A program made the position numbers and the translations under genes. 64,000 bases of DNA, taken from NCBI GenBank assembly GCA_964017235.1, contig OZ024934.1:79450706-79514705 (forward strand), read 5' to 3'. Origin of the DNA: Sabellastarte sp. h YS-2021. Taxonomy: Eukaryota; Annelida; Polychaeta; Sabellida; Sabellidae. The notes below the pieces were generated by a model. It was not told the origin of the DNA and searched no databases. It was given only the letters and a program-made list of their open reading frames with translations. Below, piece after piece: positions 5,349-59,355 of the stretch (position 1 is the stretch's first letter; each line of letters begins with the position of its first letter).

Positions 5349-8309
5349 GATTTATTATCTCCCGCCGGCTGGGCGGGAGATTATAAAACGCATTCCGTGC
5401 GTGTGTGCGTGTGTGATTGAGTGTTACGCTTTTATAAAGGGCTGTACATCACACTGGTTGTTTCTCCTTGTCCTTTTCAATGTTTTTTATGACCTTATTG
5501 CTTATGTCCTTTCATTTGATGCTGTTATTTCACACCTAGGACCATAGCTAAGTGAGTAATAGCAATGGTGGCTACTTTGAGTAAAGTGCTCATAACTCCA
5601 AAACGACTGCATTTAGAGTGTTTCTGTAAAATACGTTGTTCAGCTACTTTCTCCATGCCTACAAGATGGTACCATTTTTAGGGTTCTATCTTCATAGCTA
5701 AGTGAGTAATAGCTATTTTCTGTTATTAATAATGAGCAAAATGAGTAAATTGATTTTGTCTTTGTAACTGTTACTTACAATATTGGCCTGAAATATGTTG
5801 TTCAACAACTCCTTCATGTACTATATCATGGTGAGGTGTCCAAGGTGTAGCACCATAGCTAACTGAGTAATAGCTATACTAAGTTTAATATTTGACCATT
5901 GAGCAAGTCACTTATAACTCAAAAACTATTGAATATAGAGGATTTTTGTCAAATATGTTGTTCACCTATCTTTTGGATATACTGTATTGTGAATTTTCAC
6001 AGCTGTAACTCCATAGCTAACTGAGTAATAGCTACTTTGATGATAACCATAATGAGTAAATGGCTTATGTCTTCAAAAGTATTGCAGCTACACAATTTTG
6101 TTCCAATATGTTGTTCAGCTACTATCTCCACAGCTACAACATGGTCACTAGTTTGGAAGTGTATCTCCATAGCTAAGTGAGTAATAGCTACTTTGTCAAT
6201 TTTTAATGATAACCATAATGAGTAAATGCCTTATATCTTCAAAAGTATTGCAGCTACACAATTTCTCTCAAATAAGTTGTTCATCTACTTTTTTGTGAAC
6301 TGTAACATATTTAAGTTTCACAACTGTTGCTCAATGTACAAGTGAGTAATGGCTACTTTATTGCTACTTTTGGTGAAAATGTGAAAAATGACAAATATCT
6401 CGCAAACCGTAATAGCTACTTTGTCAATTTTTAATAATAATCATAATGAGTAAATGCCTTACATCTTCAAAAGTATTGCAGCTACACAATTTCTCTCAAA
6501 TAAGTTGTTCATCTACTTTTTAAGTCATTCATCTACTTTTGGGAGAGCTTTCACATGGTGAAGTTTCAGACTCGTAGGTAATTACTCACCTGCTGAAAAT
6601 GAGTAAATGCGAATTATCTCTAAAAGTATTGGAGATAGCCAATTTTTCTCAAATAACTCATTCACCTACTTTTGGGAGAGCTTTCACTTGGTGAAGTTTC
6701 AGACCCATAGCTAATTACTCACCTACTGAAAATGAGTAAATGCGAATTATCGCTAAAAGTATTGCAGATAGCCAATTTTTCTCAAATAACTCATTCACCT
6801 ACTTTTGGGAGAGCTTTCACTTGGTGAAGTTTCAGACCCATAGCTAATTACTCACCTACTGAAAATGAGTAAATGCGAATTATCTCTAAAAGTATTGCAG
6901 ATAGCCAATTTTTCTCAAATAACTCATTCACCTACTTTTGGGAGAGCTTTCACTTGGTGAAGTTTCACACCCATAGCTAATTACTCACCTACTCAAAATG
7001 AGTAAATGCGAAGTATCGCTAAAACTATTGCAGATAGCCAATTTTTCTCAAATAACTCATTCACCTACTTTTGGGAGAGCTTTCACTTGATGAAGTTTCA
7101 GACCCATAGCTAATTACTCACCCACTCAAAATGAGTAAATGCGAATTATCTGTAAAAGTATTGCAGATAGCCAATTTTTCTCAAATAACTCCTTCATCTA
7201 CTTTTGGGAGAGCTTTCACATGGTGAAGTTTCAGACCCATAGATAATTACTCACCTACTCAAAATGAGTAAATGCGAATTATCGCTAAAAGTATTGCAGA
7301 TAGCCAATTTTTCTCAAATAACTCGTTCACCTACTTTTGGAAGAGCTTTCACATGGTGAAGTTTCAGACCCATAGCTAATTACTCACCTACTGAAAATGA
7401 GTAAATGCGAATTATCTCTAAAAGTATTGCAGATGGCCAATTTTTCCCAAATAACTCATTCACCTACTTTTGGGAGAACTTTCACTTGGTGAAGTTTCAC
7501 ACCCATAGCTAATTACTCACCTATTCACAATGAGTAAATGCGAATTATCGCTAAAAGTATTGCAGATCGCCAATTTTTCTCAAATAACTCATTCACCTAC
7601 TTTTGGGAGAGCTTTCACTTGGTGAAGTTTCACACCCATAGCTAATTACTCACCTACTCAAAATGAGTAAATGCGAATTATCTCTAAAAGTATTGCAGAT
7701 AGCCAATTTTTCTCAAATAACTCATTCACCTACTTTTGGGAGAGCTTTCACTTGGTGAAGTTTCAGACCCATAGCTAATTACTCACCTACTCAAAATGAG
7801 TAAATGCGAATTATCGTTAAAAGTATTGCAGATAGCCAATTTTTCTCAAATAACTCGTTCACCTACTTTTGGAAGAGCTTTCACATGGTGAAGTTTCAGA
7901 CCCATAGCTAATTACTCACCTACTGAAAATGAGTAAATGCGAATTATCTCTAAAAGTATTGCAGATGGCCAATTTTTCCCAAATAACTCATTCACCTACT
8001 TTTGGGAGAGCTTTCACTTGGTGAAGTTTCACACCCATAGCTAATTACTCACCTACTCAAAATGAGTAAATGCGAATTATCGCTAAAAGTATTGCAGATA
8101 GCCAATTTTTCTCAAATAACTCATTCACCTACTTTTGGGAAAGCTTTCACTTGGTGAAGTTTCAGACCCATAGCTAATTACTCACCTACTGAAAATGAGT
8201 AAATGCGAATTATCTCTAAAAGTATTGCAGATAGCCAATTTTTCTCAAATAACTCATTCACCTACTTTTGGGAGAGCTTTCACTTGGTGAAGTTTCAGAC
8301 CCATAGCTA
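5349..8309 (+). mobile_element. 133-bp satellite element (family 2), left part
   Basis: Begins with a 10-bp-stem palindrome, ATCTCCCGCC ... GGCGGGAGAT (5,357-5,381), and a GT-rich stretch. Diverged units of about 150 bp follow (5,540-6,540). From 6,540 to 8,309 there are about 13 near-identical 133-bp units containing 'GAGTAAATGCGAATTATC' and 'TTCACCTACTTTTGGGAGAG'. The array is interrupted at 8,310 by the Ngaro-type element and continues at 15,271. No coding potential; ORFs here are repeat artefacts. Confidence 0.8.
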
Positions 8310-8809
8310 CAGTCCCTGTGGCCCCCGCCCCAAGAGAAACCATACTGGGGTTATATATATTTATTATACAATAACATTGCTACTAAAAATACTTGTGAAG
8401 ACATGTAATATAGTGACATAAAAGAGTACATAATACCTATAATCGAATACTAAAAGTTTACATTATAATCTGGTTAAGATACATGGAGAAACCCCCCCCA
8501 TGACCCCAATCATACTAGGTTGACCTCAAGGTCAAACTGACATGATTATATAAACTAATATGCGTAATGGACTAGAATTTAAGAGTGAATAGAAGAACCA
8601 AGCCATGGTTGAAAAACAATACCCATAGGTTGCAAACCCAGGTGAATTAAGGTCAAAGTAAACCCGGAGTTGACCATTTGATGATAATTAACACTTGGGG
8701 TGAAAACAATACCTCGATGAATGACCAACAGAGATGAAATAAGGTCAAAGGTCAAGGTCCCTCCAAGGGTCATTAACACTGAGTTGCCAAGTGAAGAGGT
8801 CAAACCAGG
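8310..8809 (-). repeat. Ngaro-type element, outer split repeat B2
   Basis: A 500-bp sequence beginning CAGTCCCTGTGGCCCCCG that recurs almost identically at 10,077-10,584 (B1). It forms the 3' end of the minus-strand element, and its outer edge abuts the interrupted 133-bp satellite unit. No gene: the ORFs in it are present in both repeat copies and match nothing I recognise. Confidence 0.85.
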
Positions 8810-9875
8810 GTCCATCGAAGCATTATGTAACAAGGGCCATAATGATGCAGTTACCATTTAAAAAAGAAACTATAAAAGTCATATAAAATAAAGAAACATG
8901 ATTTAACATCTGTACGAAGTTTGTTGGGCACTAGCCAGGACAGTTCGCCAATCCATCCCATATGATAGCTGAGCAACCAAGCCAGGGTATTTAACATCAC
9001 ATTCCGCTGGGCGCGAGGCGCCAGGACAGTCCCTGAAGCCAGGTAACGATGCTGGCTGCCAAGCATATAGCCAGAATTAAACTACATATCCTGGTTGGAC
9101 GCCAGCAGGCGCCAGGTCAGTCCCTTCTAAGCTGGGTGCCAATTCGCACCAGGCCAGTCTCTCAATAATTAAAGTACTCCTGGACAGGTGTTGGGTGCCC
9201 CAGTGCACCAGGACAGTACCTCATACATAGGTAAGATAACATAATGAAACATGGGTACACGAGCAGGCTACTACCACCACAACAGGCTGCATAAATAAGC
9301 ATGAGCCAATCTCTACCGGTCCCTAGCATTGGAATAACACCTTAACATGAACACACACAAGCAGGCGCTCCCCTGATGTAATAGGCTCCCTGCTACCAGA
9401 GCCCCAGGGATATAACATTACAGCAGGTGAGGCAGCAGCACCATTCTCCGCCATATAAGATAGTAATATGTAGGAAGGTCCACAATATATCTTGATAAGA
9501 GTTGCAGGTAACACATAAGGCTCATCCACTTCAGATTGGATAAAGTAGCCAACCAGATAGCTGGCGAGCTCCTGGAGGAGGCGTCTGACAACAGGAAAGG
9601 AAGGCCAAGTCAGACCACCATATATCAGGCCAACCAGACGTGCTGGCGAGCCGTATACACCTCTTCAGCAACACAGCTGGGCATGAAGACATCAGACAGG
9701 AGGCTTGAACCACCGGTAGAACATTCGACCAGAAGTAAGGAGAGGTAGGCCAGCAGGAAGGATGACATCCAGGCATCGGGAGGGAGAGCCCCACAGATGA
9801 GCACACTCTGAAACTGAAAAATCTGACAGCCAGCATGATATTGACAAATAAGGGGAGGGTTACCCCTGGGGTGGG
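8810..9875 (-). other. Spacer between A2 and B2 of the Ngaro-type element, with four bulged hairpins
   Basis: About 1.07 kb with no recognisable coding sequence. Four related modules read, on the + strand, YTGGGYGC - short loop - GCRCCAGG - N - CAGTNYCT, with the right arm and tail at 9,018-9,034, 9,109-9,125, 9,146-9,162 and 9,205-9,221. The tail CAGTCCCT is the same word that opens the B repeats at 8,310 and 10,077, and the GGCACCAGGACTGAG word near the end of A is related. They may be extra recombinase or protein-binding sites; that is inference. Confidence 0.6.
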
Positions 9876-10076
9876 AAAAATAAAATTTGTTATATGTGTT
9901 CACAGGTCACCTTCTACATTCAAAGTGACCAGTTGACCAGCTATTGGGAAGGTCACGCTTCACTGGCCAATCACAGAGGTGATATCAAAAACCATGTGGG
10001 CACAAGAACCTACAAATAAAATAACATTAAGGTGGCACCAGGACTGAGCCCCGAGACACCCCAATGTCTCCTAGCA
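9876..10076 (-). repeat. Ngaro-type element, internal split repeat A2
   Basis: A 201-bp copy of the element's own 5' end (15,070-15,270), with about one difference. It is joined directly to B1 at 10,076/10,077. That junction equals the one expected if the element's two outer ends were joined in a circle, which is how split direct repeats are thought to regenerate the termini. Confidence 0.87.
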
Positions 10077-10584
10077 CAGTCCCTGTGGCCCCCGCCCCAA
10101 GAGAAACCATACTGGGGTTATATATATTTATTATACAATAATATTGCTACTAAAAATACTTGTGAAGACATGTAATATAGTGACATAAAAGAGTACATAA
10201 TACCTATAATCGAATACTAAAAGTTTACATTATAATCTGGTTAAGATACATGGAGAAACTCCCCCCCCCCCCCCATGACCCCAATCATACTAGGTTGACC
10301 TCAAGGTCAAACTGACATGATTATATAAACTAATATGCGTAATGGACTAGAATTTAAGAGTGAATAGAAGAACCAAGCCATGGTTGAAAAACAATACCCA
10401 TAGGTGGTAAACCCAGGTGAATTAAGGTCAAAGTAAACCCGGAGTTGACCATTTGATGATAATTAACACTTGGGGTGAAAACAATACCTCGATGAATGAC
10501 CAACAGAGATGAAATAAGGTCAAAGGTCAAGGTCCCTCCAAGGGTCATTAACACTGAGTTGCCAAGTGAAGAGGTCAAACCAGG
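10077..10584 (-). repeat. Ngaro-type element, internal split repeat B1
   Basis: A 508-bp copy of B2 (8,310-8,809). The main difference is a longer C tract near 10,260-10,274. It lies immediately downstream of the recombinase region in element orientation and immediately upstream of A2. Confidence 0.87.
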
Positions 10585-10690
10585 TCACGAGGTCATAACA
10601 GGTATAAACATGTAAAAATGATGACTGGAATATAATGTAATGATAAGAAAAGAAGGGGCCCAAACACCCAGTAGAGGTAGGGAGAGAAGG

Positions 10691-11345
10691 CTAGGCATAC
10701 AAGTGTGTTGCAAAAGCAGCTGAAACCTGTGACTGGGAGGAAGGGAGGGCAATATATCGCCAAACACAATTTGAAGTCCAAGTCCCCTGGGTCTGGATAT
10801 GCTGGATAGGTACTCCATGTTGGAACGCCCAGGAAGCCCCACCCCTGCGGAAATCATGGAAAGTGAGGGACCTGTGTAGACCTAATATACTGGAGACTTG
10901 CTTAAGATGCTTCCTGGCTGCTGAATCTGTAAGTGGAGTAAGTGAAGCCGCCTGTGAGATCTGAAACAAGGGAGAATCTGGGTGAGAAGGGTATTGAGAT
11001 AGCATTTGCTTCAGAGCAGAGATTGGGCACAACGCCGAGGAACCTAGAAAGGGAATATCCACTGTTGTGGTCTTCACTCGGTCTTGGAGGGTCTTGGACC
11101 ATTTCACTACAATCACAGCCCTCTGAAAAGCAAAAACCACGTCCCCTTACTGTATCCAGGCCATAGATGATGGAGATAGATCTAATTGCCGTAATATGGT
11201 TTGTTATATTATCAGGAGACATACCAGACTGGGCCAAATACTCCATGAAGGCTAATACATCTAATGAAGAGATGGCAGGAAGCGACAGGTCCACTACCAC
11301 CAGGAAAGCCAGGAAGAGTTGAAACATTCTCTCATAGGATGCCAA
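10691..11345 (-). pseudogene. Tyrosine recombinase region of the Ngaro-type element
   Basis: Would cut and join a circular DNA intermediate to integrate the element. The C-terminal block 'HDFRRGGASWAFQHG' followed by 'IQTQGTW' matches the catalytic His-x-x-Arg and downstream region of Ngaro recombinases, with a Tyr shortly after. The N-terminal part resembles the helical DNA-binding half ('ITAIRSISIIYGL'). The region is in more than one open segment, so this copy is probably not fully functional. It lies directly before B1, as the family arrangement predicts. Confidence 0.75.
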
Positions 11346-11442
11346 GGTGTTTGGACGGAAGCCAAAATGTAACCTCCTGACAGCCTGGGACGCCAGTGGA
11401 GCTGTCGCTGCCTGGAAATCTACAAAAACAAATAAACTTGTG

Positions 11443-13023
11443 CTAAATATCGTGATTAAGGAGGGTTAAATCTATATGTGTGTCAATACATAAAGGGTTC
11501 TCCAGCAACATATTTAATTTTTTAGAATTATCCACAGTTAAATGCCATCTGGAGAGGAGGTCAGCTATAGAATTATCCATACCTTTGATATGACACACAA
11601 TAATATTGACATTAAACATAGCTGCCAACAGCCAGACATTTCGGGTGGAAGTAGCCATAATAGAGTCCCTTGCTCTACCATAAGTTAGGACTTCCACTAC
11701 TGCCATGTTATCACACATAATTTGAATGGACTTATTGGCCCACATATGGCCCCAGATTTTAAGAGCTACCACTACATTAATGATTTCTAAGTGTGCAATA
11801 TTATAATTGTTAAAACCTCTAGGGATACGCAAAGCATAGACATAGTTATCATAGCAACCCCCTAGCCCTTCTAAGGATGCATCCAAGTATATACGCTTAT
11901 GCAGGGGGGTTGATAATAAAAAGTAATTTCCATTGTAAGAGGTAAGAAAAACTTGAAACCATTTTAAGTCTTTGAAAAATTCTTCATTAAGACAAATAAC
12001 AGAATTATTATGATTTTCTCTCAAAAGCTGGAGCATACGGTTAAGAAAAAATCTGGCTGGTCGAACACATTCTGTGATATAAAGGAGTAAACCTAGTAGT
12101 GATTGTAACTCATTTTTTGGAACTATTCTTTTATTGGACCATAAGTTGCACATTTGACATATTTCCTGCAACTTGCTATCCGGAATAGATATGGTCCGGT
12201 TAACCGTATCAAACATTATACCCAAGCATATGACCTTAGTACTTGGAGGACACAGCTTCTTAAGACTAATGTCCAGTCCTAGATCCTGAAGGAGATCCAA
12301 CAAAAATTGATATGAGTGACCTATATTAGAAGGCAATCCGCAGTATATGAGGTCATCAATGTAATTTAAGAGTGCATTATGACCATTTTTGTTCATAATG
12401 AACCTTACAGCATCGCTTATCTTACTAAAGAAAAAAGCTCCCAAGCGATATCCAAATGGCAGAGAAAGATCCAGATACAGCTTACCCCTGTGCTGCAAGC
12501 CTAAAAGGTCAATATCTCCTGGATCTATACGGATATGCCTAAAAGCTCGGCTAATATCCACTTTGAAAATTTCAGCTGAAGGACCTAATTCAGTAAGTGT
12601 TCGTATAATGGAGTCTATAGATGGATAGTGCATCTGGAAATTTGTGCCTAAGTATGTGTCCTTGAGTACCCCATCATTAATAGAATAACCTTTGGGAAAG
12701 CTGAGATCCATGATAGTTCTTCTAGCATCTGAGTCCGACTTTTCTCGGAAGGGGGATATATGTATGTCAAAAGGTTTGTTATCTAGAGGGCCTAACATTG
12801 CCTGGAACCCAAGTTCCTCTGCAATATATTTATCGACATGTTCCGGATATAATCTAGCAGAAGTATGGTTGACCAAAGTACACTGAAGATCTCTGGATCT
12901 ATCAAAATCCAGAGGAAATCCAAACTGGATAAGATCCGGAAGTTGTTGGTCAAAATAGTCAGCCAAATGACGCCTCCAACTGTCAACATTTAAGTTAGTA
13001 CGAACTGGTATTCTGAGACCCAA
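11443..13023 (-). CDS. Reverse transcriptase-RNase H of the Ngaro-type element
   Basis: A 526-codon open frame. Residues about 90-300 carry RT blocks: 'FKVDISRAFRHI' (first catalytic Asp), 'LPFGYRLG' and 'LLNYIDDLIYCG' (the YxDD active site). Residues about 375-500 carry an RNase H domain: 'IYLDASLEGLGG', 'HLEIINVVVAL', 'MCDNMAVVEVL' and 'NSIADLLSRW' supply the acidic residues. It would copy element RNA into DNA and remove the RNA. It overlaps the end of the upstream 275-codon frame by 29 bases. The arrangement is typical of tyrosine-recombinase retrotransposons. Open throughout. Confidence 0.88.
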   Translation of the reverse strand: MGLRIPVRTNLNVDSWRRHLADYFDQQLPDLIQFGFPLDFDRSRDLQCTLVNHTSARLYPEHVDKYIAEELGFQAMLGPLDNKPFDIHISPFREKSDSDARRTIMDLSFPKGYSINDGVLKDTYLGTNFQMHYPSIDSIIRTLTELGPSAEIFKVDISRAFRHIRIDPGDIDLLGLQHRGKLYLDLSLPFGYRLGAFFFSKISDAVRFIMNKNGHNALLNYIDDLIYCGLPSNIGHSYQFLLDLLQDLGLDISLKKLCPPSTKVICLGIMFDTVNRTISIPDSKLQEICQMCNLWSNKRIVPKNELQSLLGLLLYITECVRPARFFLNRMLQLLRENHNNSVICLNEEFFKDLKWFQVFLTSYNGNYFLLSTPLHKRIYLDASLEGLGGCYDNYVYALRIPRGFNNYNIAHLEIINVVVALKIWGHMWANKSIQIMCDNMAVVEVLTYGRARDSIMATSTRNVWLLAAMFNVNIIVCHIKGMDNSIADLLSRWHLTVDNSKKLNMLLENPLCIDTHIDLTLLNHDI

Positions 13024-13822
13024 AAAAATTGGGAAGGTTAGATTGCCTTATGAGCTTATGAGCAGTCAAGACGTCAGGGATATAATCCCAATTGACTGTG
13101 GGACCTTTATACACATAAATAGGAGCAAGGGGAACACAGCCAAACTTGGTGCCAATCTGCTCCTTGCATTTTTTATACTCCGGAACCGAGGTATAATCTA
13201 CTATGTTAGTATCCGGATCCGGTTGCAACACCTTCTGATGTGCAGTGAAATCTTCATGCAAGTAGGAGTCCGAAGTACTACTGTGGCCATTGTGTGAACT
13301 ATCCTCGCCTGATGTGATAGGTTGAACCTCCTGAATGCTATCTAATACTTGGAATCTGTTACTTATAGCTACTGGCTCACACTGTTTTACCTGTCTATGG
13401 GTAGCCTGCGGATTTGAAGCCATCATTCCACTTATATCCCGGGCATTATTCACAGTGCAAACCCAAGAAACCTTCTGATGGTCTTGTTTGTTGACATAAA
13501 TACTACTTTCCTTGACCTCAGAAGTATTGAAATCAGTATTGACCATCAGCTGATTAAGTGCATTTGGGTCACCTTTATGGGTAGTATGGTGTTCAGTGAT
13601 GCGACCTGTGGCCCTTTTATGTGTAGTCTGTTGTTTAGAAAGCAACGCCTGGGCATAGGTTCTGTGGTCCCTAAGTTTAAGCACAGCCATAGCAGATTCA
13701 AACCTTTGCTTGATTTGACTTTTAGACCAACCTGAAAGTGACCAAACATCTTTGTGAGAGTACTGATAGTTAAGTATTGTCCTAGCCTTGTGGACATGAC
13801 TGGAACCCGGGGTCATGTCCAC
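12995..13822 (-). CDS. Ngaro-type element, open frame between gag and RT
   Basis: A 275-codon open frame between the gag-like gene and the RT gene on the same strand. It is polar and rich in Gln, Ser, Thr and His. Its last third ('VPLAPIYVYKGPTVNWDYIP') looks like the N-terminal leader often found ahead of the RT domain in this group. I recognise no enzyme domain. Its beginning lies three bases from the end of the gag-like frame and its end overlaps the RT frame, so it belongs to the element and not to the host. Confidence 0.6.
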   Translation of the reverse strand: MDMTPGSSHVHKARTILNYQYSHKDVWSLSGWSKSQIKQRFESAMAVLKLRDHRTYAQALLSKQQTTHKRATGRITEHHTTHKGDPNALNQLMVNTDFNTSEVKESSIYVNKQDHQKVSWVCTVNNARDISGMMASNPQATHRQVKQCEPVAISNRFQVLDSIQEVQPITSGEDSSHNGHSSTSDSYLHEDFTAHQKVLQPDPDTNIVDYTSVPEYKKCKEQIGTKFGCVPLAPIYVYKGPTVNWDYIPDVLTAHKLIRQSNLPNFFGSQNTSSY

Positions 13823-13824
13823 AG

Positions 13825-15006
13825 TTATTCGTTTTTTGCATTTTTACGACAATCAGTTTGTGGGTGAGGGTAGGACTTGCCCTCTTTGTTCCAACACGAC
13901 ATACAAACATGTTTATACAGTACACCTTTTGTTTCGTGGGTCTGTTTGTGAGTGCAACTACCTTTGTTATAAAAAACACAGGTGGTTACTTTGCCAGAAG
14001 AAGGCTTATCTTGGCTTTTTTGGACTGCACTTTGAGCAGTCCCATGTCTTTGAGCATGAGCTCTACGGACTCTATCTATCTTCTTAGTTTCTGACCAGTT
14101 TTTAATTTCGCCCTGTTCCATACGGCACAATAACACCGCATGACTGGCCTTCGCCGAAGCCCAGGAGAAGTCAGTAGCATCATCCAGCAAGTCAATTACA
14201 TAGTCTAGCATATGCTCCCTAACTGTGATGTCTGACTCCTCCCTGATGGTTCGGCAAAAGCCAGCCATCCACTGGATTGGTGAGAGCTGGTTGTAGGTGA
14301 CCCTATCCTTATTTTGACCTGAGAGGACAAATTCATGTGGCCATCTGACTTTATGGTTGACAAAAACATCAACTGCCCCACCCCTTTGAGACTTCAATTT
14401 AGTCATACCTGGTTTAACGTTATCTGCTAGATGCCTGAGCCTAGTTTGTACTTCTTCTTGAATCCTAGCCTCCTCTCTCAACTGACTGGGTGGGGGAATA
14501 TTATGAGGAACATGAACAGAGGAGGAGATCGCCCCAACCCTATGGGCCCCAGCTTGGACGTCATCGACTTTGACTTTATTTTTTGATTTTTTAATTTTGG
14601 AAGCATCATTAGTCTTTTTGACAGGCTTTTTCATAGAGTTTTCCATACTGTCTAACCTAGCGCCTAATGCACTCAGTTGGGACAAGATCTGACTGTTAAT
14701 ATACTGCTGGTCTGTGAGAGCAGCATTCGAACCCGAGGGATGTGAAGCCTGACCTTCAGTAGCTTTATGAACACCCCGACCAGAAAAAATGGGACTGGAA
14801 GACAAATTTTGGTCCGAATGGTCTACCAAAGCAGATATGTCAATATCAGATCCGGAATCAGATAAATCAGTAACAACTTGCCCAGTTTGTACAGAATTAG
14901 CTCCCCCTCCCGACGCCGTCAAGAAATCCACATCTGACGCCAGCTGGAGTTGAATTGGGATGCGACACTCTCCTCTGTTCCTCAGATTATATCTAGCTTC
15001 ATTCAT
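13825..15006 (-). CDS. Gag-like protein of the Ngaro-type element
   Basis: A 393-codon open frame beginning 'MNEARYNLRNRGECRIPIQ'. The middle has a Lys-rich segment and a short predicted coil ('LSALGARLDSMENSM'). The block 'IQWMAGFCRTIREESD' starts a helical region, and the C-terminus carries a Cys/His cluster (C-x3-YNKGSC-x2-K ... H-x-C-x2-CW ... HP-x3-C) that probably binds nucleic acid. It starts 63 bases inside the A1 repeat boundary, so A1 with its AT-rich edge likely holds the promoter. Intact. Confidence 0.8.
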   Translation of the reverse strand: MNEARYNLRNRGECRIPIQLQLASDVDFLTASGGGANSVQTGQVVTDLSDSGSDIDISALVDHSDQNLSSSPIFSGRGVHKATEGQASHPSGSNAALTDQQYINSQILSQLSALGARLDSMENSMKKPVKKTNDASKIKKSKNKVKVDDVQAGAHRVGAISSSVHVPHNIPPPSQLREEARIQEEVQTRLRHLADNVKPGMTKLKSQRGGAVDVFVNHKVRWPHEFVLSGQNKDRVTYNQLSPIQWMAGFCRTIREESDITVREHMLDYVIDLLDDATDFSWASAKASHAVLLCRMEQGEIKNWSETKKIDRVRRAHAQRHGTAQSAVQKSQDKPSSGKVTTCVFYNKGSCTHKQTHETKGVLYKHVCMSCWNKEGKSYPHPQTDCRKNAKNE

Positions 15007-15069
15007 AGTTGTATATAAGTCAACTAAAAACTCTAAAATAAAATCTAACAGTAAAAAGGTAGAAGGCCA

Positions 15070-15270
15070 AAAAATAAAATTTGTTATATGTGTTCACAGG
15101 TCACCTTCTACATTCAAAGTGACCAGTTGACCAGCTATTGGGAAGGTCACGCTTCACTGGTCAATCACAGAGGTGATATCAAAAACCATGTGGGCACAAG
15201 AACCTACAAATAAAATAACATTAAGGTGGCACCAGGACTGAGCCCCGAGACACCCCAATGTCTCCTAGCA
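15070..15270 (-). repeat. Ngaro-type element, outer split repeat A1 (5' end)
   Basis: A 201-bp repeat nearly identical to 9,876-10,076. The outer edge '...TCTCCTAGCA' meets the resumed 133-bp satellite ('ATTACTCACC'). The likely transcription start and leader of the element lie here, by analogy with the family. Confidence 0.86.
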
Positions 15271-17078
15271 ATTACTCACCTACTCAAAATGAGTAAATGC
15301 GAAGTATCGCTAAAACTATTGCAGATAGCGAATTTTTCTCAAATAACTCATTCACCTACTTTTGGGAGAGCTTTCACTTGGTGAAGTTTCAGACCCGTAG
15401 CTAATTATTCACCTACTCAAAATGAGTAAATGTGAATTATCTCTTAATAGTATTGCAGATGGCCAATTTTTCTCAAATAACTCCTTCATCTACTTTTGGG
15501 AGAGCTTTCACTTGGTGAAGTTTCAGACCCATAGATAATTACTCACCTACTCAAAATGAGTAAATGCGAATTATCGCTAAAAGTATTGCAGATAGCCAAT
15601 TTTTCTCAAATAACTCGTTCACCTACTTTTGGAAGAGCTTTCACATGGTGAAGTTTCAGACCCATAGCTAATTACTCACCTACTGAAAATGAGTAAATGC
15701 GAATTATCTCTAAAAGTATTGCAGATGGCCAATTTTTCCCAAATAACTCATTCACCTACTTTTGGGAGAGCTTTCACTTGGTGAAGTTTCAGACCCATAG
15801 CTAATTACTCACCTATTCAAAATGAGTAAATGCGAATTATCGCTAAAAGTATTGCAGATAGCCAATTTTTCTCAAATAACTCATTCACCTACTTTTGGGA
15901 GAGCTTTCACTTGGTGAAGTTTCACACCCATAGCTAATTACTCACCTACTCAAAATGAGTAAATGCGAATCATCTCTAAAAGTATTGCAGATAGCCAATT
16001 TTTCTCAAATAACTCATTCACCTACTTTTGGGAGAGCTTTCACTTGGTGAAGTTTCAGACCCATAGCTAATTACTCACCTACTCAAAATGAGTAAATGCG
16101 AATTATCACTAAAAGTATTGCAGAGAGCCAATTTTTCTCAAATAACTCGTTCACCTACTTTTGGAAGAGCTTTCACATGGTAAAGTTTCAGACCCATAGC
16201 TAATTACTCACCTACTGAAAATGAGTAAATGCGAATTATCTCTAAAAGTATTGCAGATGGCCAATTTTTCCCAAATAACTCATTCACCTACTTTTGGGAG
16301 AACTTTCACTTGGTGAAGTTTCACACCCATAGCTAATTACTCACCTACTCAAAATGAGTAAATGCGCATTATCGCTAAAAGTATTGCAGATAGCCAATTT
16401 TTCTCAAATAACTCATTCACCTACTTTTGGGGGAGCTTTCACTTGTTGAAGTTTCAGACCCATAGCTAATTACTCACCTACTCAAAATGAGTAAATGCGA
16501 ATTATCTCTAAAAGTATTGCAGATAGCCAATTTTTCTCAAATAACTCATTCATCTACTTTTGGGAGAGCTTTCACATGGTGAAGTTTCAGACCCGTAGAT
16601 AATTACTCACCTACTCAAAATGAGTAAATGCGAATTATCTCTTAAAAGTATTGTACTTAGCCAATTTTTCTCAAATAACTCATTCACCTACTTTTGGGAG
16701 AGCTTTCACATGGTGAAGTTTCAGACCCATAGCTAATTACTCACCTACTCAAAATGAGTAAATGCTAATTATCTCTAAAAGTATTGCAGATAGCCAATTT
16801 TTCTCAAATAACTCGTTCACCTACTTTTGGGAGAGCTTTCACTTGGTGAAGTTTCACACTCATAGCTAATTACTCACCTACTCAAAATGAGTAAATGCGA
16901 ATTATCGCTAAAAGTATTGCAGATAGCCAATTTTTCTCAAATAACTCATTCACCTATTTTTGGGAGAGCTTTCACTTTAACAGCAAAACTATTCAATTTA
17001 AAGGAGTTTTGTCAAATTTGTTGTTCACCTACTTTTTGATGTAGTGCGGCGGGAGATCATACCACGGCAGTGGTCTTG
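15271..17078 (+). mobile_element. 133-bp satellite element (family 2), right part and 3' end
   Basis: About 13 more 133-bp units continue the array broken by the Ngaro-type element. After 16,980 the sequence reverts to a diverged unit. It ends with GGCGGGAGAT (17,048-17,057), the right arm of the 5' palindrome at 5,372-5,381, followed by hairpin CCAC-GGCA-GTGG (17,062-17,073) and TCTTG. Without the insertion the element would be about 4.8 kb. Confidence 0.78.
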
Positions 17079-17121: not shown

Positions 17122-17705
17122 AAAAAGAAAAAATCTGTTATGTGCTTCCTTCGGGATGTTTATTTGCCTTTTGGGACAGAACTCTTCCCCTACCTCAGAG
17201 CGGGTCTGTGAAAAAAAAAGGGGGGGGCAAAATCGGTATAAGCCCCAGCAACCAGGTACTGGTAACTGACCATAGGCCTACAGGTTTCCTGACTATAAGT
17301 CAACCTAGGCCAGAGGAAATTTTGTTATCATTTATGAGTTCACTTAAGTCCCTAGAAAATTACCCGCCAACCAAGCAGTGGTTATTCAGCAATTGTCCAT
17401 TGGATAGGATTTATTAATGCAATAAAATTGCAAATTTAATCAGTAAATTAAATTTTTGTAAGTTAATACCCTATCCAATGGACAGGCAAGGCCCTCCCAA
17501 CCAACCCCGCTATCAGTTTACTAGGTGTCTTAATAGGAAGTACAATGCACCAACTGATGAATGCACAGTGGGACCTGCCAGTCGGTGGAAACATAGGACG
17601 ACTGTTTTTGTCGTTTAGCGGGCCAGTCTGCACCGACCAGATTAGCAATTGTCCATTAGATAGGGTATTAACTTATAAAAAATTTAAATTACTTACAAAA
17701 TTTGC
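17122..17705 (+). mobile_element. DIRS terminal-region fragment
   Basis: From 17,389 to 17,700 the sequence matches the left terminal region of DIRS copy A (1,789-2,130), including the 'ATTGTCCATTGGATAGGAT' word, its inverse at about 17,470, and the short 'ACCGACCAG' block near 17,632. Bases 17,122-17,388 hold an A-rich run and AT-poor sequence of unclear origin, perhaps the untranslated 3' part of a DIRS element. No RT or recombinase coding sequence adjoins it, so it is a terminal fragment or solo terminus. Confidence 0.6.
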
Positions 17706-48784: not shown

Positions 48785-51085
48785 TTGTTTGTTTGTTTGT
48801 AAACAAGATAACTCAAAAACTGACAGACGGATTTTGATAAAATTTTCAGGATATGTCCAAATTGGTAAAAGGAAGATGTGATTAAATTTTGGGAGTGATC
48901 CGGATCACTGTCTGGATCTTCTGGATCCATGAAATTTAATTTTTAAACACAGATAGCTCAAAAAGTTATGGGTGCATTTTGATGAAATTTTCAGGAGATG
49001 TCCTTATTGGGACGAGAAACAAGTGATTAGATTTTGGGAGTGATCCGGATCACTGTCTGGATCATCTGGATCCAGACTGCCAGATGTGTTTGTGTACAAT
49101 ATAGCTCAAAAACTTATGAACGGATTTTGATGAAATTTTCAGGATATGTCTGAAAAGGTAAAAAGATGAAATGGTTGAATTTTAGAAGTGATCCGGATCA
49201 GTATATGGATCTTCTGGATCCATGAAATGTAATTTTTAAAGACAGATACCTCAAAAAGTTATGGATGGATTGTGATGACATTTTCAGCAAATGGCCTAAA
49301 TGGTGCGAGGAACAAGTGATCAGATTTGGGGAGTGATCCGGATCACTGTCTGGATCATCTGGATCCAGGTTGCAGATGTGTTTGTGTACATTGTAGCTAA
49401 AAAACTTATGGACGGATTTTGATGAAATTTTCAGGATATGTCTGAAAAGGTAAAAGGATGAAATGGCTGAATTTTGGAAGTGATCCGGATCACTATATGG
49501 ATCTTCTGGATCCATGAAATATAATAAGACAGATACCTCAAAAAGTTATGGATGGATTGTGATGACATTTTCAGCAAATGACCTAAATGGTGCGAGGAAC
49601 AAGTGATTAGATTTGGGGAGTGATCTGGATCACTGTCTGGATCATCTGGATCCAGGTTGCCAGATGTGTTTGTGTACATTGTAGCAAAAAAAACTTATCG
49701 ACAGATTTTGATGAAATTTTCAGGATATGTCTGAAAAGGTAAAAGGATGAAATGGCTGAATTTTGGAAGTGATCCGGATCACTATATGGATCTTCTGGAT
49801 CCATGAAATGTAATAAGACAGATACCTCAAAAAGTTATGGATGGATTGTGATGACATTTTCAGCAAATGACCTAAATGGTGCGAGGAACAAGTGATTAGA
49901 TTTGGGGAGTGATCTGGAGCACTGTCTGGATCATCTGGATCCAGGTTGCCAGATGTGTTTGTGTACATTGTAGCAAAAAAACTTATGGACAGATTTTGAT
50001 GAAATTTTCAGGATATGTCTGAAAAGGTAAAAGGATGAAATAACTGAATTTTGGAAGTGATCCGGATCACTGTATGGATCTTCTGGATCCGTGAAATGTA
50101 ATAAGACATACCTCAAAAAGTTATGGATGGATTGTGATGACATTTTCAGCAAATGACCTAAATAGTACAAGGAACAAGTGATTATACTTTTGGAATGATC
50201 TGGATCACCGTCTGGATCATCTGGATCGAGCCTGCAACATGATTTTACGATGAATTTTGATGATATTTTTAGGCTATGTTACAAATAGTAAAAGGAAGAA
50301 GTGGTAAAAGGATGAAATGATTGAATTTTGGAAGTGATCCGGATCACTATATGGATCTTCTGGATCCATGAAATGTAATTTTTTAAGACAGATACCTCAA
50401 AAAGTTATGGATGGATTGTTTCACAAATGGCCTAAATGGTACAAGGAACAAGTGATTACATTTTTGGAGTGATCTGGATCATCTGGATCCAGGCTTGCAC
50501 ATAATCTTGGAATGGATTTTACTATTTTCAGGATATGTTACAAATGGTAAAAGGAAGAAGTGGTAAAAGGAAGAAATGGTTCAATTTTGCGAGTGATCTG
50601 GACCACTATCTGGATCTTCTGGATCCGTGAATGTAATTTTTAAAGACAAATAGCTCAGAAAGTCATGAATGGATTTTTATGAAATTTTCAGGAAATGTCT
50701 TAAATGGGACAAAGAACAAGTGATGAGATTTTGGGAGTAATCTGGATCATGTGGATCCAGGCTGCCAGATGTGTCTGTGTACAAGATAACTCAAAAACTT
50801 ATGGATGGATTTCGATGAAATTTTTAGAATATGTCTGAAAAGGTAAAAGGATGAAATGATTGAGTTTTGGAAGCGATCCGGATCACTATATGGATCTTCT
50901 GGATCCGTGAAATGTAATTTTTAAAGACAGATATAAGTGAAACAACTAGTGATTAGCTTTTGGAAGTAATCTGGTACTATGGAGAATCCTGACCTGGTGC
51001 TCCAGGAAACAGGCTCAAGCCCGACACATTCACGCCTTAACTATGTCCCGTCTGGGGATACACTGCGTCAAGACGCAATCTCTAG
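48785..51085 (+). mobile_element. Minisatellite-bearing Helitron-like element, family 1, copy 2
   Basis: Same array and tail as 1-1,788, about eight units of the 280-bp dimer. The end has a perfect hairpin TGCGTC-AA-GACGCA (51,064-51,077) and CTAG at 51,082-51,085. The left edge has a TTTGTTTGTTTGTTTG run. Minus-strand ORFs of 65-105 codons here ('SGSLDPDDPDSDPDHSQN' type) are repeat artefacts. Confidence 0.78.
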
Positions 51086-52497: not shown

Positions 52498-52650
52498 CTG
52501 CCTGAATTAAACCATGAAGCTCAAGAACAGGTGAAAAACAATGGTCGACCAGTACTTGTATTCCTTATCCAGAATGTTGGACTTTTGCTTGGATATGGAC
52601 TGATGCTCTTCCTTGCTATTTACACAGCAAAAATTGATCTGAGTGGATGA
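52498..52650 (+). CDS. SLC39A14: ZIP transporter last exon e (helix 8 and stop)
   Basis: 51 codons including stop: 'LPELNHEAQEQVKNNGRP', then the last membrane helix 'VFLIQNVGLLLGYGLMLFL' and a short tail ending 'KIDLSG'. Human ZIP14 ends with the same pattern ('PEMNE...FIIQNLGLLTGF'). Acceptor TTTTTAG ends at 52,497; entering phase 0 matches exon d. The TGA is at 52,648-52,650. A foldback DIRS terminus sits 77 bases downstream, so the 3' untranslated region either ends early or runs into it. An AATAAA occurs at 53,557. Confidence 0.92.
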   Translation: MPELNHEAQEQVKNNGRPVLVFLIQNVGLLLGYGLMLFLAIYTAKIDLSG

Positions 52651-52726: not shown

Positions 52727-52970
52727 AGCAATTGCTAATTCGGTCGTCGTGACCAGCCCTGCCAAACAACAGAAAAAGCCTTCCTGTGTTATGCACCAGC
52801 AGTACCGGTTTGATACAGTACATTCTCTAGCTGGCGCGTGGTACTTCCTTCCTGTCTAGACAGTGTATTGTCATGCTCTGTACCAGACCAGGCCTGCTGG
52901 TGTATAACACAGCACGGCTTTTTCTGTCCTTTGACGGGGCTGGTCGCGCCAACCAGTTTAGCAATTGTCC
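52727..52970. mobile_element. Solo DIRS-type terminus, long foldback
   Basis: Imperfect palindrome of about 244 bp. The left arm starts CAATTGCTAATTCGGTCG and contains GACCAGCCCTGCC...CAGAAAAAGCC. The right arm is its inverse, GGCTTTTTCTGTCC...GGGGCTGGTC...TTTAGCAATTG. The sequence then continues TCCATTGGGTAAGGTATTAA as in the DIRS termini at 1,789 and 17,389. No element body is attached. Confidence 0.7.
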
Positions 52971-54232
52971 ATTGGGTAAGGTATTAAATTATAAAAATTT
53001 AATTTACTTATTAAATTTGAAAATTGTGATATCATAAAGTATATTAAATTCTGAAGTCATTATTGCAATACCAAATCATGATATGATGAAAACATGAAAG
53101 TTCTCTGTTTTGGCAAATATTATACCTAAGAAAAAATTTGACACCCAGGCCTTTGTAAAGATAAAAATACCTATTGAAATCTGCAATTATTCTTCATGAT
53201 AATCATGATGGGATGATGTCTCCTGCTGTAAAATATGGTGATATTTCAATGTCATTTTTTTGCGTTGAGAAGACTTCACTAATTTTAAGAGAGCATGTTT
53301 TTACTTAGATATGTGTGTTATATTGGACAGTAAATAATGCTTCTTTTCTTGTAAACAGTACCAACTGTGATGGACAGTCAATTTTTGCAGGCAATTTCAC
53401 CCAAGTTATGTCAGTGTAAGTCATTGCCTCCCATTTTGAGGACACTGTTTAAACTTTGAAACAACATTGCCTATGTCACTAAATAGACATACTTTTCAGT
53501 TTTCAGTGCATATTTTAATTTATCTGGCATTCAAATCCATGGAGAAATAATGGATCAATAAATGACCTCTCCCATGTTTTCAACTTACAATATTTCTTAG
53601 TAGAGAGTTTAAGTACCATTTTTAGAAGAGTTGATCTGTTTTAGGCACTTTATCACATGTTATAGACTATCTGATTTTCGGTAATGTTGAAATCTACATC
53701 TCAGTGTGTAAATATTTAAATATTCTGCAACTATATAATGTTAAATGAAACTACAAGTCCCGTTTAATTTGGTTTGCTTTCTTGCTATAGTTGTTCAGAA
53801 CTCGCAGTCAATTATTGATTACTCGCCCCAATCTGGCATAGCTTGTCCAAAATCTGGCTTTTAACATAGTTGAACTAATTGTGATACTTTACAAAGTGTC
53901 TGATTGTAAGTCATTTGGTTGTAAAGCAAGAGCTTCCATAAAGTTGTGTATTAAATATTGTAGGTTTGTTTGTAGTTCCTACATGAAGGGACTGGTGAAG
54001 AGATTGCAAAAACATTAATCAAAATGTCAAAAGGTATCACCAAGAAATGATATCCACAACAAATTATCAATTAAAATCATTTAAGAATAGAAATTTCTTT
54101 CCTGTTACAGTTAGTTCCTGTTAAATACATATTCTAAAATTTAATTTGACATAATCTACTGAAATTGGCCAACTAAAAAAAATGTTCAGTTAAAACATTC
54201 CTCTATGTTTCTTTGGCAAAAAGATTCTATTT
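52971..54232. other. AT-rich stretch downstream of the ZIP gene
   Basis: No gene recognised. Could include 3' untranslated sequence of the ZIP gene. Confidence 0.45.
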
Positions 54233-57200
54233 AAGCGTCCCGCAAGGGACGCTTGTTTGTGTATGGGAGAGCTTCAGGCTCCGCCGGCTCCGCCGGCTCC
54301 GCATTTTGTTTTCCTTATAACTCTGTAACCGTTAGGCGGATTCTTTTCAAATTTGGCAGGTTTAGGCAGTAGCCTTGGGGAATTTTTTTGAATATACTGC
54401 AGTGACATTTCAACCAATCAGAGAGGTCACATGACCAAAAATGTCTTTTTTCGATGGGGAAGCTTGTCCGGATGATAACTTGAAAGGAATTTTATCAATT
54501 TACCTGCAACTTGGCAAATACATTCATTCTATTAAAATCTGGAAATCATTAGATTTTGGCATTGATTGGTCAAGAAATGGCCGAGTAATTAATGATTAAT
54601 TAATCATTACGAATTTTCCAAATAAGGAAAACACAAAAATGCTTATATCTCGAAAACCGTGCTAGATAGAGCGATTTCGACGAAATTTTTGACCCGCAGG
54701 GTTTCTCTGCGGAGTAGTTTTCCCAATTTTCAAAAAAATTTTCTCTCGCCCAAAATGGCGGCCATTTTGAATTTTCGAAATTTTTACAAAAATGCTTATA
54801 TCTCGAAAACCGTGCTAGATAGAGCGATTTCGACGAAATTTTTGACCCACAGGGTATCTCTGCAGAGTAGTTATCCCAATTTTGAAAAAATTTTTGTCTC
54901 GCCAAAAATGGCGGCCATTTTGAATTTTCGAATTTTTCGCAAAAATTGCAAAACATAAAAATGCTTATATCTCGAAAACCCTGCAAGATAGAGCGATTTC
55001 GACGAAATTTTTGACCCACAGGGTATATCTGCAGAGTAGCCATGCCAATTTTCAAAAAAAATTTGTCTCGCCAAAAATGGCGGCCATTTTGAATTTTCGA
55101 ATTTTTCGCAAAAATTGCAAAACATAAAAATGCTTATATCTCGAAAACCCTGCTAGATAGAGCGATTTCGACGAAATTTTTGACCTGCAGGGTATCTCTG
55201 CAGAGTAGCCATGCCAATTTTCAAAGAAAAAATTTCTCGCAAAAATTGGCGGCCATTTTGAATTTTTTTATTTTTTGCTTAAAAATGAGTAAATGCGAAT
55301 TATCTCTAAAAATATTGCAGATAGCCAATTTTTCTCAAATAAATCATTCACCTACTTTTGGGAGAGCTTTCACTTGGTAAAGTTTCAGACCCATAGCTAA
55401 TTACTCACCTACTCAAAATGAGTAAATGCGAATTATCTCTAAAAGTATTGCAGATAGCCAATTTTTGTCAAATTAATCATTCACCTACTTTTGGGAGAGC
55501 TTTCACTTGGTGAAGTTTCAGACCCATAGCTAATTACTCACCTACTCAAAATGAGTAAATGCGAATTATCTCTAAAAGTATTGCAGATAGCCAATTTTTC
55601 TCAAATAACTCATTCACCTACTTTTGGGAGAGCTTTCACTTGGTAAAGTTTCAGACCCATAGCTAATTACTCACCTACTCAAAATGAGTAAATGCGAATT
55701 ATCTCTAAAAGTATTGCAGATAGCCAATTTTTGTCAAATTAATCATTCACCTACTTTTGGGAGAGCTTTCACTTGGTGAAGTTTCAGACCCATAGCTAAT
55801 TACTCGCCTACTCAAAATGAGTAAATGTGAATTATCTCTAAAAGTATTGCAGATAGCCAATTTTTCTCAAATAACTCATTCACCTACTTTTGGGAGAGCT
55901 TTCACTCTGTGAAGTTTCAGACCCATAGCTAATTACTCACCTACTCAAAATGAGTAAATGCGAATTATCTCTAAAAGTATTGCAGATAGCCAATTTTTCT
56001 CAAATAACTCATTCACCTACTTTTGGCAGAGCTTTTCACTTGGTGAAGTTTCAGACCCATAGCTAATTACTCACCTACTGAAAATGAGTAAATGCGAATT
56101 ATCTCTAAAAGTAATGCAGATAGCCAATTTTTCTCAAATAACTCATTCACCTACTTTTGGGAGAGCTTTCACTTGGTGAAGTTTCTGACCCATAGCTAAT
56201 TACTCACCTACTCAAAATGAGTAAATGCGAATTATCTCTAAAAGTATTGCAGATAGCCAATTTTTGTCAAATTAATCATTCACCTACTTTTGGGAGAGCT
56301 TTCACTTGGTGAAGTTTCAGACCCATAGCTAATTACTCACCTACTCAAAATGAGTAAATGCGAATTATCTCTAAAAGTATTGCAGATAGCCAATTTTTCT
56401 CAAATAACTCATTCACCTACTTTTGGGAGAGCTTTCACTTGGTGAAGTTTCAGACCCATAGCTAATTACTCACCTACTCAAAATGAGTAAATGCGAATTA
56501 TCTCTAAAAGTATTGCAGATAGCCAATTTTTGTCAAATTAATCATTCACCTACTTTTGGGAGAGCTTTCACTTGGTGAAGTTTCAGACCCATAGCTAATT
56601 ACTCACCTACTCAAAATGAGTAAATGCGAATTATCTCTAAAAGTATTGCAGATAGCCAATTTTTCTCAAATAACTCATTCACCTACTTTTGGGAGAGCTT
56701 TCACTTGGTGAAGTTTCAGACCCATAGCTAATTACTCACCTACTCAAAATGAGTAAATGTGAATTATCTCTAAAAGTATTGCAGATAGCCAATTTTTCTC
56801 AAATTAATCATTCACCTACTTTTGGGAGAGCTTTCACTTGGTGAAGTTTCAGACCCATAGCTAATTACTCACCTACTCAAAATGAGTAAATGCGAATTAT
56901 CTCTAAAAGTATTGCAGATAGCCAATTTTTGTCAAATTGATCATTCACCTACTTTTGGGAGAGCTTTCACTTGGTGAAGTTTCAGACCCATAGCTAATTA
57001 CTCACCTACTCAAAATGAGTAAATGCGAATTATCTCTAAAAGTATTGCAGATAGCCAATTTTTCTCAAATAACTCATTCACCTACTTTTGGGAGAGCTTT
57101 CACTTGGTGAAGTTTCAGACCCATAGGTAATTATTCACCTACTCAAAATGAGTAAATGTGAATTATCTCTTAATAGTATTGCAGATAGCCAATTTTTCTC

Positions 57201-57741
57201 AAACAACTCATTCACCTACTTTTGGAAGAGCTTTCACACACGAAAATGAAAAATTGTGAATATCTCGGAAAAGCTATTTCTTCTGCTTTAATGCTCGGCG
57301 GGAGATACACACCGCGGCAGTGGTCTTGACAAAAATTTTTGTCTCCCCAAAAATGGTGGCCATTTTGAATTTTCAAAGTTTTTGCAAAACACAAAAATGC
57401 TTATATCTCGAAAACCGTGCTATATGGAGCGAACTCAACAAAATTTTGGACCTGCTGGGTATCTCTGCAGAGTAGCCATGCCAATTTTCAAAATATTTTT
57501 GTCTCGCCAAATATAGCGGACATTTTAAATTTTTTTATTTTTTGCAAAACACAAAAATGCTTATATCTTGAAAACCGTGCTAGATAGAGCAGACTGCGCT
57601 GACTTTGGTTGCCACAACAGTATAAGGCTAGAAACGAAGCATTTTCTTAATACTTTAGCACTCACCTTTATATCCTTTTCGGGACGCTTTGTTTTTGCTA
57701 TGCAAAAACATTATCTTTTTTTTTTGCGAGCGATCCTCTAG
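54233..57741 (+). mobile_element. Minisatellite-bearing Helitron-like element, family 7, with a family-2 array inside
   Basis: Palindrome AAGCGTCCC-GCAA-GGGACGCTT (54,233-54,254), a GGCTCCGCCGGCTCCG block, then units of 153-169 bp ('TTATATCTCGAAAACCGTGC', 'GATTTCGACGAAATTTTTGA', 'ATGGCGGCCATTTTGAATTT'). The array is split by 55,285-57,324 and resumes. At the end GGGACGCTT recurs (57,681-57,689), then hairpin GTTTTTGC-TAT-GCAAAAAC (57,691-57,709) and CTAG at 57,738-57,741. ORFs of 80-150 codons within it are repeat artefacts. Confidence 0.72.
55285..57324 (+). repeat. 133-bp satellite array (family 2), second locus
   Basis: About 15 units of the 133-bp satellite, ending with GGCGGGAGAT (57,297-57,306), a CCGC-GGCA-GTGG hairpin and TCTTG as at 17,048-17,078. 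The 5' palindrome is lacking, so the copy is 5' incomplete. It interrupts the family-7 array. Many adjacent units alternate between CTCAAATAACTC and GTCAAATTAATC forms. Confidence 0.78.
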
Positions 57742-58109: not shown

Positions 58110-58117
58110 GTAAGTAT

Positions 58118-58479: not shown

Positions 58480-58487
58480 GTAAGTAT

Positions 58488-58881
58488 ATACCATAATTTC
58501 TGTAATAATCTCCTGTAGTTGATACATTTTAACAAAAAGGGCTGTCATCATAAAGAACAACAAAAATTTCAGTCCAGTTTAACTAAAGTTAAACCACTAA
58601 ACATATTATTCTTTCTTATATTTTCTGTCTTTCTTCAGGTGTGACAGGTGACAAATATGTTTAAGAAAATTGATAACAGAAGGTATTTTCCTGCATACTC
58701 CTATTTATGTACAACCACAGTGAAGACAAGAGCACTTGGAGAGAGCAAACCTCTGCCAAGGCACATAATAATAAGTAAATTGGACAAACCCGTTTTTTTC
58801 TGTATTGCAAGGAGATCCAGATCACTCTCAAAATTAAATGGGATCTAAGTTTGGACCAAAACCTGTCTCTTAATTATTATG
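58488..58881. other. Unassigned stretch with a fragment of family-1 sequence
   Basis: A 66-codon ORF (58,648-58,848) has no recognisable domain. Its last part, 'GATCCAGATCACTCTCAAAA', is the complement of the family-1 minisatellite core, so it is probably repeat-derived. Confidence 0.4.
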
Positions 58882-59355
58882 TCCACCCCCCTGGGGGGTG
58901 GATATATTATTTTTGCTTTTTCTGCCGTCCGGCGTCCGATGTCCGGCGTCACGCATGGTTTCCGCTCATTTAAAGGAAAAGTTTTAGAGCTATTGTCACC
59001 AAATTTGGTATGCAGGCTTATTGGGTCAGTAGCTTGCTTGGGATTGCTTTTGGCTGTTGTACCTCTTTTGCTTACTGAGTAATACTTAAGTACAGCTATT
59101 TTCAGTACCCATTGGTTTCCGTGCATTTAAGCCAAGATAATTAAAGATATTTTACTACAATTTTGAATACAAGATTGTTATGTCCATAGCTCGCTTGGTA
59201 TTGCATTTGGGACTGATAGCTTTGTCAGTACATGAGTAATAGCCATTTAGGTACTTCATTGTGTATTTTCAGTACTACTTTTGAGTAATTTGCTAATATC
59301 TCAGAAACCGTAAGAGATAGAGCGATTTGGACAGAATTTTTGACCTGTAGGGTAG
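58882..59355 (+). mobile_element. Minisatellite-bearing element, family 8
   Basis: Opens with a 10-bp-stem palindrome TCCACCCCCC-T-GGGGGGTGGA (58,882-58,902) and a CCGTCCGGCGTCCGATGTCC block. Two or three diverged units follow, with 'TCACCAAATTTGGTATGCAG' and, at the end, 'ATATCTCAGAAACCGTAAGA' plus 'GAATTTTTGACCTGTAGGGT' as in family 7. Cut off on the right by the DIRS element. Confidence 0.6.

Follow-up and report, generated by a model that had tools for sequence, protein, structure and literature searches.

Probable HINEs in a Sabellastarte genome, with neighbouring copies of different families lying mostly on the same strand

The DNA analysed here, called the window, is a stretch of 64,000 nucleotides of the annelid Sabellastarte sp. 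h YS-2021 (contig OZ024934.1, here C8; positions 79,450,706 to 79,514,705). It carries blocks of seven tandem-repeat families, F1 to F7, interpreted below as probable HINEs (non-autonomous Helentron-type elements). A first-pass annotation had proposed that these families have one order of parts, namely a 5′ palindrome, a GC-rich or low-complexity block, tandem units and a terminal hairpin, with the right arm of the palindrome returning just upstream of the hairpin in three of them. The full order was seen only for F1, F2 and F4 and, in another locus (L045), for F3; F5, F6 and F7 yielded no 3′ end. The proposed palindromes were all read: in F1 at 5357–5381 (near-perfect arms, GC loop), in F2 at 23250–23278 (near-perfect), in F4 at 54233–54254 (perfect 9-base arms, 4-base loop), in F7 at 58882–58902 (perfect 10-base arms, 1-base loop), in F6 at 36883–36892 (perfect, 10 bases) and, more weakly, in F5 at 37585–37617. 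The returned arms were likewise confirmed at 17048 (GGCGGGAGAT, F1), 25643 (GGCTGTGGGGTA, F2) and 57681 (GGGACGCTT, F4), each with a hairpin behind it. Exact ends were counted in the whole 1.786-Gb genome (G000), with reversed patterns as the control.

The F1 element (5357–17078, plus strand) has TTATT before it and T after it, and its 5′ palindrome consists of a 5′ subterminal inverted repeat (subTIR) and a complementary repeat. The F1 unit stops at 8309 and picks up at 15266, in phase save for about one base. Between these points (8310–15265, limits set by the F1 units) lies a DIRS-like retroelement on the minus strand, with open reading frames (ORFs) matching Pfam RVT_1 and Phage_integrase, the reverse transcriptase and tyrosine recombinase domains. 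The whole of 5357–17078 is best read as one F1 element interrupted by this retroelement. At its 3′ end (17048–17078) the subTIR GGCGGGAGAT is followed by the hairpin ACCAC-GTGGT and the terminal CTTG; this arm-and-hairpin pattern has 613 exact copies genome-wide and none in the control.

The F2 element (23250–25672, plus), with 146-bp units, lies between T runs, its palindrome at the element edge. Its 3′ end (25643–25677) comprises the subTIR GGCTGTGGGGTA, the hairpin GCATC-GATGC and CTATTTTT. Two further, diverged copies lie on the plus strand at 26763–27458 and 40691–41552, the latter F2-like with matched units and 3′ end and an unmatched 5′ end. A small insert in an F2 unit (24589–24964) has GTAGTTGT on either side and the ends TAGTGTTG and CCACCACTA; it resembles a hAT-type miniature element with an 8-bp duplication, a trait of such elements.

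The F4 element (54233–57741, plus) is composite. Behind its palindrome come a GGCTCCGCC block, F4 units, an F1 array closed by a diverged F1 3′ end (55282–57328, plus; subTIR at 57298), F4 units again, the 3′ subTIR at 57681, a hairpin and CTAG (57738–57741). Both F3 copies are on the plus strand and have no 5′ palindrome. The first (32146–33289) has 147-bp units, the 3′ subTIR GGTGGATAC at 33247, a hairpin and CTAG (33286–33289); the second (33978–34951) has the same 3′ end, with one mismatch in the arm and CTAG at 34948–34951. A 5′ palindrome (TTGTATCCACC..GGTGGATAC) is present in the F3 copy of L045. The F3 arm and hairpin were found 545 times in exact form, with none in the control, and 37 of the 39 other F3 matches listed stop at window positions 33291–33297, just past CTAG, the remaining two reaching the end of the probe.

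The positions of the element edges were determined from loci fetched with 5′ probes for F1, F2 and F4. These are best-scoring and not random copies, with the window copy included in each set; minus-strand loci were turned before comparison, and F1 was read one base over, as the F1 element starts with A. The palindromes had been placed at element boundaries, and this was borne out by 8 of 8 F1, 30 of 30 F2 and 30 of 30 F4 loci, in which the palindrome stands at the 5′ edge with differing flanks. Both ends were readable in 16 F2 copies of the fetched loci and two of the window. The first-pass annotation had named absence of the returned arm from most copies as a refutation, and for F2 the arm is instead present in most: of 12,872 exact hairpins followed by TATTTT, 9,289 (72%) have the exact 12-base arm one base upstream, and reversed F2 patterns gave no genomic match. 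The F4 5′ end pattern had 5,002 matches against none in the control. Ten F1 5′ matches lie on C1 or in the part of C2 below 90.5 Mb, and for four of them an exact F1 3′ end was located 1.2–5.7 kb downstream on the same strand. The homogeneity of the arrays, and the few bases shared at several F4/F1 junctions, might suggest that the palindromes and hairpins are incidental to satellite arrays spread by recombination and are not mobile-element ends. Given the sharp 5′ edges that the 68 fetched copies share while their flanks differ, the empty site described below and the thousands of dispersed exact ends, this explanation is scarcely credible.

TT stands directly before the element in all 68 copies (8 F1, 30 F2, 30 F4) and T at position −5 in 66 of them (F2 30/30, F4 29/30, F1 7/8), with position −6 mixed; the target is thus TNNTT. 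An empty site readable on both sides was found for F2 in L042, where F2 sits inside a foreign tandem array and the other units of that array, as well as L089, have the same sequence without F2. The filled site reads GG-TTTTT-ACCCC...GATGCTA-TTTTT-GATAAG, against TAGTTTTTGATAAG and similar in the empty units, with one T run in place of two. One-sided empty sites at TT or TTT were seen for F1 in F1 (L005), F4 in F4 (L071) and F4 in other arrays (L089, L090). No target duplication was seen at the empty sites examined.

Canonical Helitrons, which have a 5′ TC, insert between A and T and end in a hairpin and CTRR, were considered as an alternative class. The CTAG terminus proposed by the first-pass annotation was found in F4 and both F3 copies, with the hairpin just before it, and these two families do resemble canonical Helitrons there; F1 ends in CTTG and F2 in CTATTTT. 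Moreover, there is no 5′ TC, F1, F2 and F4 all starting with A after TNNTT. The invariant TT before the element and the position of the F2 empty site inside a T run also disagree with canonical insertion, and subTIRs are a Helentron trait (PMC4067079). Assignment to canonical Helitrons is very unlikely. Subterminal inverted repeats near both ends, 11–15 bp long in HINEs, are present in F1, F2 and F4 of the window (9–12 bases) and in F3 of L045.

The earlier suggestion of a broad rolling-circle-like group agrees well with the T-rich target, the lack of visible duplication, the subterminal inverted repeats and the 3′ hairpin. In the proposed mechanism, a Rep/helicase provided in trans would recognise the elements by their subterminal repeats and 3′ hairpin, and one strand would be copied and joined into a T-rich target, leaving TNNTT before the element and no duplication. 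A single-strand intermediate and a partner of Helentron type are what we infer from these features. The Rep domain PF14214 gave 24 genomic matches, one of which (L015) also has DUF6570. Within the readable 1.5 kb on each side, HINE pieces were found in three of the 24 loci (L013, L025, L029), none ordered as one element with Rep, and no exact F1 or F3 3′ end lies within 20 kb of the two Rep matches on C1. In L013, an F3-like 5′ palindrome (ATTGTATCCCC..GGGGATACTAT) stands at about 3301, with a broken Rep match 1.2 kb upstream of it. Separately, L012, L014, L015 and L017 hold Rep-bearing Helitron-type copies that are 99% alike over 2.0–3.6 kb, with 126-base repeats upstream of Rep; these are a young autonomous family.

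The idea that the group exchanges its tandem-repeat cargo held for F4. Of the 30 F4 loci, among them that of the window, 26 switch from F4 to F1 units inside the readable 1.5 kb; L071, L076, L077 and L087 have no switch over that length. The F4/F1 junctions are of six types (13, 8, 2, 1, 1 and 1 loci), several with a few bases in common where the arrays meet. The window and L061 both have an F1 array that closes with the F1 3′ end and gives way to F4 units and then to the F4 3′ end, and the right-hand joint is nearly the same. Our reading is that one nested F1 was amplified inside F4 and that its left joint was later altered by deletions; several separate captures of F1 by F4 are a possible alternative. 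Precedents for such a composite are HINEs with double arrays (PMC7492417) and self-inserted Helitrons (PMC5148889). The DIRS-like insertion into the F1 element of the window is an event separate from this nesting.

The orientation of neighbouring copies was compared within and between families. In the window, every HINE block whose direction is defined (F1, three of F2, two of F3, F4, F5, F6 and F7) is on the plus strand. Among 21 fetched loci with a second family beside the anchor, the strand agrees in 18 and disagrees in three; one of the three, L044, involves the array seen at 35–1636, which is no proven HINE. Larger counts came from matches listed in order along C1, the first 100 per pattern, giving 126 F2 and 100 F4 places; pairs share members, so that pair counts are not independent. 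Among these listed matches, F2–F4 pairs were on the same strand in 20 of 20 cases below 20 kb (15/15 at 5–20 kb), 24/32 at 20–50 kb, 27/44 at 50–100 kb and 46/87 at 100–200 kb. F4–F4 pairs agreed in 15/15, 15/16, 22/28 and 23/40 cases over the same ranges and in 58/84 at 200–400 kb, and F2–F2 pairs in 27/33, 28/44, 43/67 and 57/112. The nearest F2 to each listed F4 agreed in 16/16, 29/30 and 32/37 cases within 20, 50 and 100 kb, against 8.7, 15.8 and 19.0 expected; none of 4,000 shuffles reached the agreement at any of these distances. In a separate run, 9 of 20,000 shuffles reached 32/37, and none of 125 circular shifts did.

A second set comprised 432 merged places of five families outside C1:0–19 Mb, both ends of one element being merged. 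Cross-family pairs in this set agreed in 6/7 cases below 20 kb, 8/11 at 20–50 kb, 8/11 at 50–100 kb, 14/26 at 100–200 kb and 22/47 at 200–400 kb, or, pooled, in 14/18 below 50 kb (p 0.02) and 22/29 below 100 kb (p 0.007). As a control, a repeat comparable in copy number, with 9,738 copies and SINE-like (resembling a short interspersed nuclear element) by judgement, was analysed in the same 19 Mb of C1. It agreed with itself in 11/19 pairs below 20 kb, 8/18 at 20–50 kb and 18/31 at 50–100 kb, and with the nearest HINE within 50 kb in 14/36 cases. The control repeat looks dense at C1:6.6–9.5 and 13–14.7 Mb, where listed HINEs are sparse.

Co-orientation could also have arisen by segmental or tandem duplication, or by the loss of inverted pairs, and dense F4 clusters, such as seven listed copies at C1 31.53–31.72 Mb that are all on the minus strand, would fit such an origin. 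The control repeat, with its near-even strands at up to 50 kb, does not follow it, and F2 and F4 units have just a 15-base stretch in common in a pairwise test yet agree in every pair below 20 kb. We consider duplication improbable. Equally improbable as a general explanation is that the 3′ ends recreate the preferred target, so that later elements land head-to-tail. The ends GCTATTT and CTAGTT do fit the target pentamer, and among the 29 F4 loci other than the window's an F2 3′ end abuts the F4 start in L064 and L067 and an F3 3′ end in L081, while in L045 F3 starts directly behind the F4 3′ end. This would account for contacts at zero distance only, and not for the F2–F4 agreement at 5–20 and 20–50 kb.

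Taken together, the repeat families are very probably HINEs whose inserting strand follows a local polarity that extends over about 50–100 kb and is common to the families. Several observations weigh against this reading. The F1 empty site of L003 against L062 is off by one T, in a pair only 74% alike, and can be read also as A^T; the CTAG ends of F3 and F4 are those of canonical Helitrons; and an exact 3′ end has no nearby occurrence for the other six of the ten F1 5′ matches. For F5, F6 and F7, neither a 3′ end nor a subTIR copy or 3′ hairpin was found, and among the 24 Rep loci, over 1.5 kb on each side, there was no Rep-bearing element with these ends. The co-orientation draws mainly on the first 19–34 Mb of one chromosome and on non-independent pairs, with 6 exceptions among the 33 F2–F2 pairs below 20 kb. 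The sparse families F1 and F3 have no co-orientation within themselves, neighbours of one family being alike in 38/68 (p 0.17) and 36/70 (p 0.46) cases, and F1 or F3 is on the strand of F2 in 1/4 cases at 50–100 kb and 2/11 at 100–200 kb.

Different families obey one strand rule, and a control repeat from the same DNA does not, which suggests that replication or transcription sets the target. In this scheme, the polarity of the chromosome over some 50–100 kb would decide the insertion strand, and the cause would be single-stranded lagging-strand DNA at forks, or transcription. The pattern rests on the counts; for its cause, we favour local single-stranded DNA, from replication or transcription, which are not separable here, over selection or duplication. 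The flanks of 65 loci, masked for HINEs and repeats and read on the element strand, have an excess of T over A of +0.029 (0.008–0.050) and of G over C of +0.032 (0.004–0.063). A flank polarity thus exists, though a weak one, with a sign that would suit a coding strand and a leading strand equally. The T skew was also considered as the cause of co-orientation and was rejected as too weak.

Selection that removes copies of one orientation with respect to a host gene, so that introns retain the other, was weighed on the same data. The scale of about 50 kb could fit gene length, and the flank skews are those that a coding strand would have. A ZIP transporter gene in the window, with exons at 46105–46260 and 46998–47180 by Pfam, is moreover on the plus strand, that of the HINEs. 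Replication would give the same skew signs, the gene is a single case, and the agreement of 16/16 within 20 kb exceeds what intron selection usually achieves; selection is a somewhat unlikely cause. A possible further ZIP exon lies at 52498–52647, without a Pfam match, and a PDB search with one ZIP exon gave no match. From 223 flank ORFs, 180 were retained after eight loci and low-complexity frames were dropped, and 20 of the 180 were scanned by Pfam; these gave one hAT transposase, one reverse transcriptase, two matches below cut-off and no host gene. Because no host gene was among the 20, the transcription idea rests on the one gene.

Our boldest proposal is made tentatively. Insertion strand may be dictated by fork direction through a single-stranded lagging-strand template, as for the IS200/IS605 elements of bacteria, whose mobile form is single-stranded and which follow replication direction (PMC5371812). 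The strands of HINE families co-oriented over 50–100 kb would then be a fossil record of the direction of forks or transcription in the germ line. Searches of the available open-licence literature, which did not extend to subscription papers on the Helitrons of maize and bats, found no description of Helitron or Helentron domains that share a strand.

The remaining families are represented by their 5′ parts, all on the plus strand and with provisional right limits. F6 (36883–37540) has a short palindrome and units, F5 (37585–38230) a weak palindrome like that of F1 and a low-complexity block, and F7 (58879–59355) its palindrome and a GGCGTCC block; the 39 other F7 matches listed start at window positions 58868–58877. 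From these 5′ ends, F5–F7 would be further HINE members. Unit sequences had been described as unrelated between families, which does not apply to some family pairs that have a short core in common. Among 45 pairs, five had 0/200 and three had 1/200 shuffles at the observed score (uncorrected); all eight are on the same strand, and one of them pairs a unit with its own family's leader. An initial profile scan yielded 787 matches against 1 in reversed sequence and is circular, its seeds being taken from the window. Leave-one-out profiles recovered F1, F4, F5, F6, F7 and the 35–1636 array (E 0.00024–0.013) and missed F2 (E 1.9) and F3 (E 5.9), the best reversed-control matches being at 1.8–9.7. 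The core is not claimed as new, because two conserved segments common to oyster HINE units are already published (PMC7492417).

Other repeats were also noted in the window. A further tandem family at 35–1636 and 48815–50919 has a core in common with F6. A retroelement at 59752–63238 (plus) has reverse transcriptase and RNase H matches and is DIRS-like by judgement, and similar broken frames occur at 2783–4968 and 28713–31909. A dispersed repeat with a GGCGGGACCGGTC..GCCGACC core, perhaps a terminal inverted repeat element, was seen at 1964–2135, 17589–17684 and 52905–53004 and in L072 and L079; HINE probes did not match it. A tRNA scan of the window found none.

The palindrome-arm repetition, which the first-pass annotation had supposed to be undescribed, corresponds to the published 3′ subTIR of HINEs (PMC7492417, PMC4067079). 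The layout is thus already published; what is new is the identification of these families as members of a known group and of the returned arm as their 3′ subTIR. Pearl, DTC84 and MgE of bivalves (cited in PMC7492417), likened by description only, have short arrays of about 160 bp between fixed flanks. In Fusarium, the non-canonical Helitrons FoHeli1/2 (PMC5148889) have the insertion site TNAT|T, near the TNNTT found here, and form composites by self-insertion; unlike the present families, they are autonomous fungal elements. Helentrons and HINEs of a mite, Culex and Drosophila have the same palindromic subTIRs, 3′ stem loop, TT target and duplication-free empty sites, and are tied to autonomous partners, a tie not seen here in the 24 Rep loci; directly adjacent Helitrons are reported from bat and maize in the same source (PMC4067079). 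Closest in layout, though not likened by sequence, is Cg_HINE of the Pacific oyster (PMC7492417). It has the same order of 5′ subTIR and complementary inverted repeat, microsatellite, tandem array, 3′ subTIR and 3′ palindrome, with tandem units of similar length (140–180 bp) and the same oligo-T target and absence of target duplication. Two of its elements have double arrays, and no partner was found in the oyster either. The Sabellastarte elements differ by having one array nested within another, a 3′ end in their interior, several junctions and co-oriented strands, and it is the co-orientation, more than the layout, that matters.

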